Shown here: piece after piece, positions 35,609 to 41,600 of the stretch
Layout of the letters: every line of letters begins with the position of its first letter
Position numbering within the stretch: the first letter of the stretch is position 1
Source: Tillus elongatus
Lineage: Eukaryota > Arthropoda > Insecta > Coleoptera > Cleridae
Reading direction: 5' to 3'
Length of the DNA: 64,000 nt
NCBI GenBank assembly: GCA_964006375.1
Contig: OZ023267.1
Coordinates: forward strand, 17,186,971-17,250,970
Made by a program: the position numbers and the translations under genes
The notes under the pieces: model-generated
The model's database searches: none
Seen by the model: only the letters and a program-made list of their open reading frames with translations
Told to the model about the DNA's origin: nothing

Positions 35609-38600
35609 GTAAGTATGTTTTATTTAATTTGATTAAATCTACATTTATTTCCTTTCATCGCGCCCTTTTGACATACTTGAATAATGCCCGTTATTACCCT
35701 GATTAACATTTAATTCATATTTTTGCAGACGCTCTATACCTATCCCGAGAATTTTCGTGCTGCTAAGGCATTGATTGCCGCACAGTATGCGAAAGCTAAC
35801 GTCAAAGTTGCACCAAATTTTGTATTCGGCGAAACCAACAAAACAAAGGGCTTTCTGAAGAAGTTCCCTGGTGGAAAAGTGAGTAGAAGTAATTTCAATG
35901 TCACGAACTGTTTTCGTATTATTTATAGATGCCAATTATAATTTGAGGTTAAAGGTGGAATTCTTATGCCCTGTCAACAATTTTAGGTGCCAGCTTTCGA
36001 ATCATCTGATGGTAAATGCCTCCAAGACAGCAATGCCATTGCTTACTATATCAGTAACGACCAGCTGAGAGGAAAATCAGACTATGATAGAGCACAGATT
36101 CTTCAATGGATTGGATTTGCAGAAGCAGAAATCTTGCCGGCTGCCTGTGCCTGGGTGTTCCCTATTTTGGGAATAATAAAGAACAATCCCGCAGCCCAAG
36201 AAGTGAGTTTTGAATCTTTCATTTGCACATATAGGAGCTTTGTAAAATATATTGCTTATAGTTGAGTGTTAATTTTAAGGTTTATCATTGTAGATCATTT
36301 GATTGTTTTAGAGTGGGCATTATAAATTAGAATAGTAGTTTGGGAATTTGGAAACATAAAGTCAATAGTCTGACAAGAATCATTTGTAGAGTGGGTATTA
36401 TAAATTAGAATAGTAGTTTGGGAATTAGGAAGCAACACAGTGTGACGGGACTTTCGTTATATAGTTATATATAAATACCTGAAATTAATAAATTATAGGT
36501 TTCTCAAGTGTTTCAGGCTGTTGAGTGTATTTTTGCATTAAACATTTTTGCCTGATTGGAAAAGAAAAAGCCCTTTATTGCAATTGGTGTGGGCTGATTT
36601 GGCAATAAACCAAAAGAACGCTGATTGGATTTTGAGTTGAAAGAATGTGACTGAATAATATTATAAAGTTCTGGGTAATCCTGTGTTTAAAGTGCCTCTT
36701 TAGTAAACATACAATTCGGGCGAAATCGGAACGTAAACTGGACGATGTGCACTGTTGCCAGATGAGTATAAGCAAGGGTCATTTAAATATAGAAGGCAAT
36801 CAAGGGGTGAACAAATGTTTTCATAATGTAAATAAATGATAGTATTGCGTCATGTACATAGATGGATATTTGACATATTTTGCGGAAAGAAGTAGGAAAA
36901 CGGAAATGTAAACAGTTAATTTTCAGCAATTGTGGTCTAGGGGGAAACGTGATAAAGAAGGAAATCGAGGGGTGAACAAATGTTTTTATAATTTTAATAA
37001 ATTAAAATATGGCGTCATCTACATAAATCGATATTTGACATATTTTGCGGAAAGCAGTAGGAAAACGGAAATGTAAACAGTTAATTTTCAGCCTCAGGGG
37101 GAAGAACGTGTGCCTCTCCTCCCTTTTTTGGTACATCAGTAACATCAACAGAGGTTGTGCCATTGTGATTGAGCAAGGTAATCTGCACGTTCCACCATTC
37201 CCAGGGGGCATAAAGCCGTCTGTCCCGTGCCCATGCGATGTTGGGCACGTTAAAGACCCAAATTCCCCGGACAGTGAGGTGAATGAATGACACTTTAGTA
37301 AAGTCAATGAAGCAATTTCCGTTGCGAATTGCCGATGATAAATACAACTGTATATGCTAATAGCAAACAGTAACCAGTATATTATTTTGAAAAATCGCAA
37401 TGTAATCGCATGGTAATGAAGCAATTTCTACCGACAACTGTCGATGATAAACAAAACCGAGAAAATTGCTCAAAATGGGCTTACCTTCGAAGTGTCTGTT
37501 TATATTTTACTTTCCAACCTTAAATGAGTAAGAAAAGTCAATGAAGCAATTTCCGTTGCGAATTGCCGATGATAAATACAACTGTATATGCTAATATCAA
37601 ACAGTAACCAGTATATTATTTCGAAAAATCGCAATGTAATCGCATGGTAATCAAGCAATTTCTACCGACAACTCTCGATGATAAACAAAACTGAGAAAAT
37701 TGCTTAAAATGGGCTTACCTTCGAAGTGTCTGTTTATATTTTACTTTCTAACCTTAAATTTACTAATGGGGAGACCCCGACTTTTGATTTATGAAAAAGT
37801 TTTTGACGAGGTTTTCCGAAAGAATTGTAACTTTTCATTAGGAAAAAATTTTTATGTCAAAAATTAAAAAAGTTATGACAACCAAATGTGGTACATAGGT
37901 TTACGATTGAAAAGGTACACTACACACCAAAATTACTGGTTACCGTTTGATATTAGTATATACAGTTGTATTTATCATCGGCAATTCGCAACGGAAATTG
38001 CTTCATTGACTTTACTAAAGTGTCATTCATTCACCTCACTGTCCGGGGAATTTGGGTCTTTAACGTGCCCAACATCGCATGGGCACGGGACAGACGGCTT
38101 TATGCCCCCTGGGAATGGTGGAATGTGCAGATTACCTTGCTCAATCACAATGGCACAACCTCTGTTGATGTTACTGATGTACCAAAAAAGGGAGGAGAGG
38201 CACACGTTTTTCCCCCCGAGGCTGAAAATTAACTGTTTACATTTCCGTTTTCCTACTGCTTTCCACAAAATATGTCAAATATCGATTTATGTAGATGACG
38301 CCATATTTTAATTTATTAAAATTATAAAAACATTTGTTCACCCCTTGATTTCCTTCTATATCACGTTTTTCCCCCTAGACCACAATTGCTGAAAATTAAC
38401 TGTTTACATTTCCGTTTTCCTACTGCTTTCCACAAAATATGTCAAATATCGATCTATGTACATGACGCAATACTATCATTTATTTACATTATGAAAACAT
38501 TTGTTCACCCCTTGATTGCCTTCTATATTTAAAATTACCCTTGCTTATACTCATCTGGCAACAGTGCACATCGTCCCGCATCCAGTTTACGTTCCGATTT

Positions 38601-41600
38601 CGCCTGAATTGTATGTTTACTAAAGAGGCACTTTAAACACAGGATTACCAAGTTCTGACATCTCTAAGCTTAAAAAATTGCATCTTTGTTTTTACTTGAA
38701 CTGCTGTAATGTTATCTGTTCTCAAGACACTATTTACACTACTTAAGACTTAAGATGCTTGTAATTGTTAGTAGTAGTAGCAGTGGTAGGGAGGCTAATG
38801 CCAGAGAAGTAGGCCACAATGGGCCCTTTTTGTATGGTACCCAGTGACCTGGAAAACCTGTAAAAAACAGGGAATTTGAAATGACCCCTCAATTGTCAGG
38901 GAAATTCGTGATTTTGCTCAAATGTCATGGAAATCGTTCAGTAGACCTGAAAATTATATATTTGTAAAATTGTGTCGCTAGCAGATTTGTTTTTATTTTG
39001 ATTTTATATATTTATATTATATATGAATTTTTTTACATAAATATTTTCTCCTAGTGCTGCTGTTTGGTACATTAATTGAAACTGCCAATGAACGCGTGAC
39101 ATGTCATACGAGAATATAATATAGTGTCTTCTTTATGCATCTCAAACATGTCTGATTCGTTTATCTCCCTTGGAGTGCTCTTCCTTGAATGCGTAAAATG
39201 CAAAATGGGTTCTAGCTATTGGCGGCGTAAAGCTGTGTGAATGCGTTTATTATATTTTAACCTTTTTGATCATGTAAGATGGAGTTGAAGTTGGAGTGTA
39301 AATATTTGGTATTTGTATTGTAATCCAGAAGAGAAAAGTTTATCATTGCAACGCATTCTGTATGATAGTGTAAAGAAATTATGAGAAGTGGGAAATATAA
39401 AAATCAACGATAAGCTGACCCAACTTTCAATAATTCATATCATGATTTTCTTAAGTAGTTACTGCAAAAACGTGTAGTAATTTAGTAATTTGACAGGTAG
39501 AAATTTATCACTTTTCTGTATTAGTTACAGAATTAACGATTGTTATGTTTTTGATAATGATTTAAAAAATTCAGAATTTTTATTATTATTTTTTTAATAA
39601 AAAAGATGTTTGTTCATTACGAGTATTACGAAAAAATCACTTGGGCCTGGAAATATCAAGGAATTTGATTTTTTTTTATTTTTGCTGGGTACCATGTTTT
39701 TGCCGATCCTGGCAACCCAGCAACCATGCTCTACACTTCCTCGGTTCCCTCGCCAAACCGCCTCGACCTCGAAATGAAGGCCATGACGGTCTTCCATTGG
39801 ACGGTACTTACCTGATTCCTCTGCAGAGTCCTCGAACCGAACAATTCTGCTCGAAGACTCCGAAAAGCCTCGCATTCACACAGGTACTGGTAAGACGTCT
39901 CTTCATTCTCGCCACATTCCTGGCAAATGGGATCCCTCTCGACACCTATCAATGTGAGGTGTCTTCTAAGCGTGCAGTGATCTGTCAGCACCACAAGGAT
40001 GCAGCGAAGCGCAGGTCGACTCCTACCGAGTAGCCAATCTTATCTCTGTCTGGCCCCTCCATGAAGTCCCTCGCCTGCCTACAGCCACCGGCTGACCCCC
40101 AGTGCCCCGCCATGGCCTCCTCAGTCCACCTGTCTAAGGTGACAGAGACAGTCTTCCTACTTATGCCTATCGCAGGCTCCGGGACACAGAACAGCCGCCG
40201 GGAACCAAGTCTTGCGAGATCATTCATCACCTCATTCCCCACTACGCCACAGTGTCCCGGAACCCACACCAGTTGCACCTCCTTTGTCCTGGCTAGTCCT
40301 TTAAGGGAGTCAGCACAATCCTGAACCAGTGTTGACGTAATTCTGGCTGTGGAGACTGCCCGGAGGACTGCCTGGCTATCCGAGCAAATGTATACACATT
40401 TCTCGGGGCTCATCCTCATATCCTGTCGATTGGCTACAGACAGGATAGCGTACACCTCCGTTTCAAATGCTGTGGTATATGCGCTCAGAGCATAATTCTC
40501 ACGCATCCCCAGACGGTCGATGTATATTTCTGCCCCAGAGGATTGTTGATCCTCCAGCCGCAATCTGTCGGTAAAACAGACCAGGCTTGCGGGCTGGAAT
40601 GCAACCTTATTTTCCCTCCACTGATCCCTACTGGGGATTCTGAGGGTATATGGCCTAGTCAACCTAATATCGTCCTCTGCATTCTGTACCTTGATGGTGG
40701 AAATCGGAATTTCCTTTTCCACCTCCTTGGCGACTCTTGCATGTCCTATTATTGCTCCCTCTCCACACCAGTTTCCAGAGTCTCGCATTCTGAGATGTGA
40801 CGCCATAGCATCCCTTCTGATACAGATGGGAAGCGGTGGCAGCATCAGCAAGACCTCTAGCGTGGCTGAGGGTGTCGTCCTCATGGTGTCTGTGAAACCC
40901 AGGATTGCTAGCCTTTGGAGTTTGGCCAGTTTCTTGGTAGTAGTTTGGTTCACACCGCACCACCAGACCAACGTCCCATAGAGGATTATTGGCCTGACGA
41001 TCGCAGTGTAAATCCAATAAGGGATCCGTGGATTAAGTCCCCAGGTCCTCCCTATCACTTGACGCAGCTGCCACAGGGTCTGTAATTTTCAGAGACACAT
41101 AAACAGTTAAGGGGGTGCACTAACTATGCGAAAATGAATTATAATAGTGGAATACACCGTTCTTCAGCGTGATATAAAATGAACGACCCCCAAAAATTTG
41201 TAAAGTATGACAAAAACATGCCGCAAAAGTGAGTAGAACTTACATTTTTCCTACACAAATGTCTAAATAACTCCAAAAGTTGGCTTCTGCTCTCATTTTT
41301 ATTGTGATTTTCGTCATCTACACCCTAAAACACATCTATATACAAAATTTCATAAAAATTGAATACACGCCCCAAAAGTAAACCTTTACTATAAATTTTA
41401 ACTACATAAGTTGATTCACAAAGTTGAAATATACAAGGAAAAAACATGTTTTTAACATGTAGAATGATCATTAAGCTGTTGAATCTGTGTGTCCTTGGTA
41501 AGTTGTCAACTGCCACTTCGAAGGCTGTGTTGCCATTTTAGCCTATATTTCTAGTTACATAGTTACAAACTTACATTACATAAGTGAGTTAATACCTATG

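Follow-up and report, generated by a model that had tools for sequence, protein, structure and literature searches.

A foldback element with a mirrored SINE segment in an eEF1G intron of Tillus elongatus is probably one copy of a numerous non-autonomous transposon family

The window analysed here, a stretch of 64,000 nucleotides from the beetle Tillus elongatus (contig OZ023267.1, positions 17,186,971 to 17,250,970), carries in an intron of the eEF1G gene a foldback element of 1976 bp (36674-38649). We consider it highly probable (about 85%) that this element is one copy of a numerous family of non-autonomous foldback DNA transposons. By its structure it belongs to the foldback (FB-like) group. 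It starts with GGTAATCCTG at 36674 and ends with CAGGATTACC at 38649 (the family end sequence is also given as GGTAATCC and GGTAATCCTGTG), and AAGTTCTG directly abuts it on both sides; of 200,000 random pairs of 8-mers from the window, 29 were identical. The arms, 706 and 716 bp long, align with 692 identities in 716 columns including 10 gap positions (97%). An original prediction, made from the letters of the window, had described a 2-kb foldback with an 8-bp target duplication, near-identical inverted arms and the same fragment of a short interspersed nuclear element (SINE) mirrored in both arms. The boundaries and the duplication proved exact to the base, and the likeness of the arms and the mirrored SINE fragment were borne out as well.

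The ends of the element are abundant in the source assembly (1.72 Gb, 30 contigs). Exact copies of the 25-bp end number 291 in forward and 288 in reverse orientation, and the control, the same pattern read backwards, gives 0 in either direction. Among the 100 listed of these 579 ends, all on contig C1, 76 form 38 facing pairs lying 986-9783 bp apart, with a median of 2364.5, and the other 24 have no partner. When 467 bp of the left arm served as the query, 1985 first-look candidates came up; the best 40 were scored and yielded 40 matches at 96-100%, including the two arms of the window copy itself, with one short match at 93%. The other copies for which the original prediction advised a search are therefore plentiful. 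Outside the assembly, neither the viral_contigs nor the genome_contigs collection yielded a match to the exact 23-bp end. The longest frame of the arm has no Pfam domain, and a protein search with this 147-aa frame gave 4 candidates, 0 of them at E <= 1. A name for this family may already exist.

To describe insertion sites, 20 loci (L numbers) were fetched at about 9 kb each, and 16 of them show both ends of a copy. Together with the window copy and a short copy of 1402 bp (L030), they make 18 two-ended copies, and 13 of these are flanked by exact duplications: 8 bp in ten copies, of which L032 and L039 lie in TA repeats, and 9 bp in three (L037, L030 and L047, the last in a TA repeat). In one more copy (L045) 7 of 8 letters agree. 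The duplications differ from copy to copy, and the predicted target duplication is real in this sense too. The element also enters TA runs, by our own definition of such a run, more often than expected. The 29 copies considered were the window copy and L002-L030, from which L027 was dropped as the second arm of the L012 copy. Of these, 4 stand in TA runs, while 1.4% of positions do so in the background (P = 0.0007). We compared the flank joins of the 18 copies with the window and 21 loci and saw no convincing empty site; none is claimed because the only matches across a join fell in TA-rich repeats (L032, L035) and in a local repeat that aligned poorly (L037).

The copies share one modular plan, which we followed in 17 of them (the 16 fetched copies and the window copy, with L030 left out). 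From the outside inward it reads T, one to three R165, S, a D234 array and M, followed by the mirror image, with losses in some copies. In the window copy each arm contains two tandem repeats of about 165 bp (R165) and the segment S, and the centre consists of two 234-bp tandem repeats (D234) and the 174-bp middle M (Table 1). The R165 repeats, the D234 repeats and the microsatellite-related middle had no place in the original prediction. R165 is single in one arm of seven of the 17 copies. The last left D234 unit stops at position 228-230 in 17/17, and the right D234 array opens with a remnant of 77-83 bp in 15/17 (not L033, L043). Modular long inverted arms with variable repeat number, a variable middle and a target duplication, the features of the foldback group, were thus all found.

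The middle varies most visibly in its core. In 16/16 fetched copies M is interrupted by a core of 243-1474 bp with a TA run. In the window copy M is unbroken, GAAAAAGTTTTTG running directly into ACGAGGTTTTCC, and because M is continuous there, this copy is an internal deletion form whose microsatellite core has been lost. At about 44300-44790 of the window (also in L056) lies a dispersed repeat that contains a long (TA)n run and by eye shows a short edge hairpin, AGTGAATTTT...AAAATTCACT. The foldback middle derives from a dispersed (TA)n repeat of this kind. In another copy the middle, at about L040:5362-6835, contains an additional repeat of about 400 bp that occurs more than once, partly inverted, and is nested in the TA run. 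Three long end pairs on contig C1 (about 9-9.8 kb) were considered as an autonomous form and rejected. They seem to be nested or double insertions, because samples of 400 bp from each all differ: one shows foldback arm, another a middle-type microsatellite repeat and the third an unrelated tandem array.

Table 1. Positions of the modules of the foldback element and its flanking duplications in the window.
Feature	Position	Strand	Remark
Left target-site duplication AAGTTCTG	36666..36673	.	
Left arm	36674..37379	+	706 bp, aligned to right arm
Terminal module T, left	36674..36785	+	7 bp shorter than right T
Two R165, left arm	36787..37092 (36787-36951, 36952-37092)	+	
Segment S, left	37093..37297	+	about 37137-37254 matches SINE-like body
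Two D234	37297..37759 (37297-37530, 37531-37759)	+	tandem repeat match 37297-37525 / 37531-37759
Middle M	37760..37933	.	related to dispersed microsatellite repeat at about 44300-44790
Junction without (TA)n core	37805..37806	.	core present in 16/16 fetched two-ended copies
Right arm	37934..38649	-	716 bp
D234 remnant, inner edge of right arm	37934..38016	-	83 bp
Segment S, right, mirror copy	38016..38220	-	
Two R165, right arm	38221..38528 (38221-38361, 38368-38528)	-	
Terminal module T, right	38532..38649	-	118 bp
Right target-site duplication AAGTTCTG	38650..38657	.	

The centre of S, about 120 bp, matches the stretch 27187-27307 of the window at 80-81% in both arms. This stretch belongs to a SINE-like repeat at 26990-27420, the body of which is related to S. 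The repeat has a tRNA-like head, seen by eye and not reported by ARAGORN or Rfam, neither of which gave a match anywhere in the window; the head is missing from the foldback arms, barring a possible match of 21 bp. S is present in both arms of 16/17 copies, and L043 retains 21 bp of it on one side. The original prediction had offered two alternatives, of which the first was capture of the SINE before the arms were duplicated. The presence of S in both arms of 16/17 copies places its acquisition and mirroring ahead of the spread of the sampled copies, in line with that alternative. An independent SINE insertion in each arm was ruled out, since the limits and neighbours of S are the same in both arms of 16/17 copies. 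With a SINE segment fixed in both arms in this way, the capture can be dated to a time before the family spread. In the open-licence literature searched, as far as its available text goes, no SINE segment fixed in foldback arms is reported.

From these features we propose the following course of events. Copies would insert by means of a putative transposase supplied from elsewhere, duplicating 8, sometimes 9, bp of the target. The arms are modular, built of T, one to three R165, S on a SINE body without the tRNA-like head, and the D234 array. S was captured and mirrored before the sampled copies spread, and repeat numbers were then altered copy by copy. Sequence would also have passed from arm to arm within a copy or its recent parent, as shared rare variants suggest. 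The window copy is without its microsatellite core.

With regard to the enzyme that moves the family, several transposases come into question, and assignment to a superfamily is premature. The lists of transposase matches hold the best-scored matches only, and the foldback ends compared with them are the 100 listed of 579; published families are compared, here and below, as far as the available parts of the cited papers describe them. A Merlin transposase, with the family as a long-armed derivative, is possible at odds clearly short of even. Merlin elements have terminal GG, 8-9-bp duplications and terminal inverted repeats (TIRs) of 24-462 bp (PMC8101967), and the foldback ends likewise start with GG and have duplications of 8 or 9 bp. 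The genome is rich in Merlin DDE frames (297 candidates, of which 150 matches were scored), and one Merlin family here starts with GGT and shows 8-bp duplications by eye in 2/4 copies (L051 and L053, not L052 and L054). However, the 25-bp TIR of this family, GGTGACGGTCGG, is unlike the foldback end beyond GGT, the foldback arms of the window exceed the reported TIR lengths, and 0/26 listed Merlin matches on C1 lie less than 14 kb from a listed exact foldback end. One Merlin copy does lie close to a foldback end (L054, on contig C8, where the two copies occupy 1-920 and 1048-2784, 128 bp apart), yet it is outside the foldback, and this proximity is taken as chance. We also observed a Merlin family with many stop-free frames of 334 aa (e.g. 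G000:C8:90755951-90756337), in which 451 bp downstream of one match are 93-100% alike in 40 places without the element end being reached.

Movement by a Mutator-like element (MULE) transposase, as proposed for several foldbacks, appears unlikely on present evidence, though not strongly so. In MULEs of mosquitoes the duplications measure 8-9 bp, the TIRs are long and tandem repeats lie in subterminal positions (PMC5225508). Duplications of 8-10 bp and long TIRs serve as marks of MULEs, and our foldback agrees in both; Tm1 foldbacks have a MULE transposase (PMC3169594). The genome holds such frames (130 matches from 150 scored of 390 candidates), and the excess of insertions in TA runs recalls the MULE family MuTAnT (PMC4486113). 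On the other hand, 0/25 listed MULE matches on C1 lie less than 56 kb from a listed exact foldback end.

A P-type transposase is decidedly improbable, even though the foldback Galileo belongs to the P superfamily (PMC2775673). The genome is extremely rich in P-type RNase H frames (1813 candidates, 150 scored), but 0/32 listed P matches on C1 lie less than 58 kb from a listed exact foldback end, and duplications of Galileo are 7 bp (PMC2775673) against 8 bp here and 9 bp in two copies outside TA repeats. The best 150 of the 1813 P-type candidates have mostly near-equal scores and include many stop-free frames of 735 aa (e.g. G000:C7:26855237-26855632), an abundance that suggests a very recent burst of P elements. 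P elements proper make 8-bp duplications. The hAT superfamily also makes 8-bp duplications and has ends of the type YARNG; judged by ends only, membership in it was rejected, as the foldback ends read GGTAA.

Why the arms of a copy are alike can be approached through rare variants. From 33 arms (16 two-armed copies plus one arm of L043) we aligned the modules T, inner R165 and S. Among 30 variants seen in exactly two arms (doubletons), 15 are shared by the two arms of a single copy, the expected number being about 0.9. Variants with 3 to 5 occurrences form 11 same-copy pairs, with an expectation of 3.64. By module, the same-copy doubletons are 14/21 in S, 1/1 in R and 0/8 in T, while singletons number 54, 47 and 48 over 207, 149 and 119 columns, respectively. 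Dropping L050, which is nearly identical to L048, leaves 15 two-armed copies with 14/18 in S, 2/2 in R and 0/9 in T. When the pairing of arms was shuffled, 0/5000 trials reached the observed identity over all modules, and 0/5000, 955/5000 and 37/5000 did so for S, R and T, respectively. This pattern points to an exchange of sequence from arm to arm within a copy, chiefly in the inner stretches, that would have taken place in the copy itself or a recent parent. The second alternative of the original prediction, homogenisation of the arms by gene conversion, is supported by these rare S variants common to both arms of one copy, so that both of its alternatives receive support.

According to a contrary explanation, the arms are alike solely through descent from a recent master with identical arms, and no copying from arm to arm occurred. 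The mean arm identity of 97.8% within copies is close to the 97.2-97.4% between copies, and in every alignment column left and right arms agree in their commonest letter, as this explanation would have it. The excess of same-copy variants just described, spread over 9/16 copies (neighbouring ones may be single events), makes it a poor prospect nonetheless. As a tentative proposal, to which we give somewhat less than even odds, exchange between the arms may take the form of patchy copying near the loop that keeps the arms of an inserted copy alike, with the outer 118-bp ends drifting independently and the captured SINE lying in the copying zone. If true, the hairpin core is maintained after insertion and not merely inherited. 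Arm likeness in foldbacks has usually been argued from few copies. This family offers hundreds of recent ends in one assembly with markers for each module, so that the place and timing of arm copying become measurable.

Several points weigh against the picture of a mobile foldback family whose arms exchange sequence. Neither a transposase gene with foldback ends nor an autonomous relative was found in the searches described above. The second end is lacking in 4 of the 20 fetched loci (L036, L038, L042, L049), and no duplication is seen in 4 of the 18 two-ended copies (L033, L035, L043, L046). Three of the 13 exact duplications stand in TA repeats, where they prove little. The copies analysed were chosen as best matches to the window arm and are not a random sample. 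Identity within copies is only slightly above that between copies, and by shuffling T shows a weak excess and R none, so the idea of copying confined to the inner part would rest mainly on S. As for copies lacking a duplication (L033:2356-4867, L043:2595-4672, L046:2070-4567), they are possible candidates for products of recombination between copies, a process shown for Galileo (PMC2775673); no swapped flanks were seen among them by eye. That the element is an assembly artefact or a one-off inversion has a negligible chance, as we found no point in its favour, hundreds of exact ends stand in the genome, the listed ones mostly in facing pairs, and the duplications differ from one insertion place to another.

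The host gene, eEF1G, lies on the + strand; a GST_C exon occupies 50995-51357, and the EF1G domain is encoded at 60274-60681. A frame at 35987-36262 (+) was assigned to eEF1G by eye, without a Pfam hit, and the element stands in the intron between this frame and the GST_C exon. The predicted fold energy is -1371 kcal/mol for the element as a single strand and -1268 kcal/mol for the pairing of the arms, values that stand without a shuffled control. As the original prediction held, transcription of the intron should yield a long hairpin RNA, a prediction from fold energy only. Intronic long inverted repeats may give rise to hairpin RNA and to rearrangements. A short distance upstream of the foldback, at 36306-36434, a 51-bp direct repeat occurs in two copies 78 bp apart (92%). 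Elsewhere in the window, a CLPTM1 frame has 81-84% identity to proteins of Tenebrio, Zophobas and Tribolium, the closest being those of beetles. An apparently complete piggyBac element lies at 10522-13047, with TTAA-flanked matching ends (TTAACCCATTC on both sides) and an open frame of 609 aa at 11076-12905 that contains DDE_Tnp_1_7 and zf-Tnp_2 domains.

Finally, the family can be set beside known systems. Merlin elements (PMC8101967) share terminal GG and duplications of 8-9 bp, whereas the arms here are longer than the reported 24-462 bp and no Merlin gene with foldback ends was found. MuTAnT of Medicago (PMC4486113) has a foldback structure and inserts in TA microsatellites, but most of its sites are in TA repeats against 4/29 here, its duplications are of 9 bp and its elements are short. 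Tm1 of root-knot nematodes (PMC3169594) resembles our family in composite arms, variable repeat number and duplications of 8-10 bp, and differs in that these are mostly 9 bp and the transposase is known, of the Phantom type among MULEs. Galileo and GalileoN of Drosophila (PMC2775673) have long, internally repetitive arms that are more alike within a copy than between copies. However, Galileo makes 7-bp duplications and has a P-superfamily transposase, and two GalileoN copies, whose arms agree to more than 99% within a copy and diverge by about 7% from one copy to the other, show a contrast far larger than here. Tetris, a foldback of Drosophila virilis (PMC4079207), is likewise non-autonomous, with modular arms containing tandem repeats (TIR-220), a variable middle and duplications of 8-10 bp, and its transposase is likewise not known. 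The comparison, made by description, gives one difference: our family holds a SINE body between two kinds of tandem repeats, and none is mentioned for Tetris in the available description. By structure our element is a foldback, and it works like Tetris, Galileo and Tm1, with modular arms and variable repeat number.

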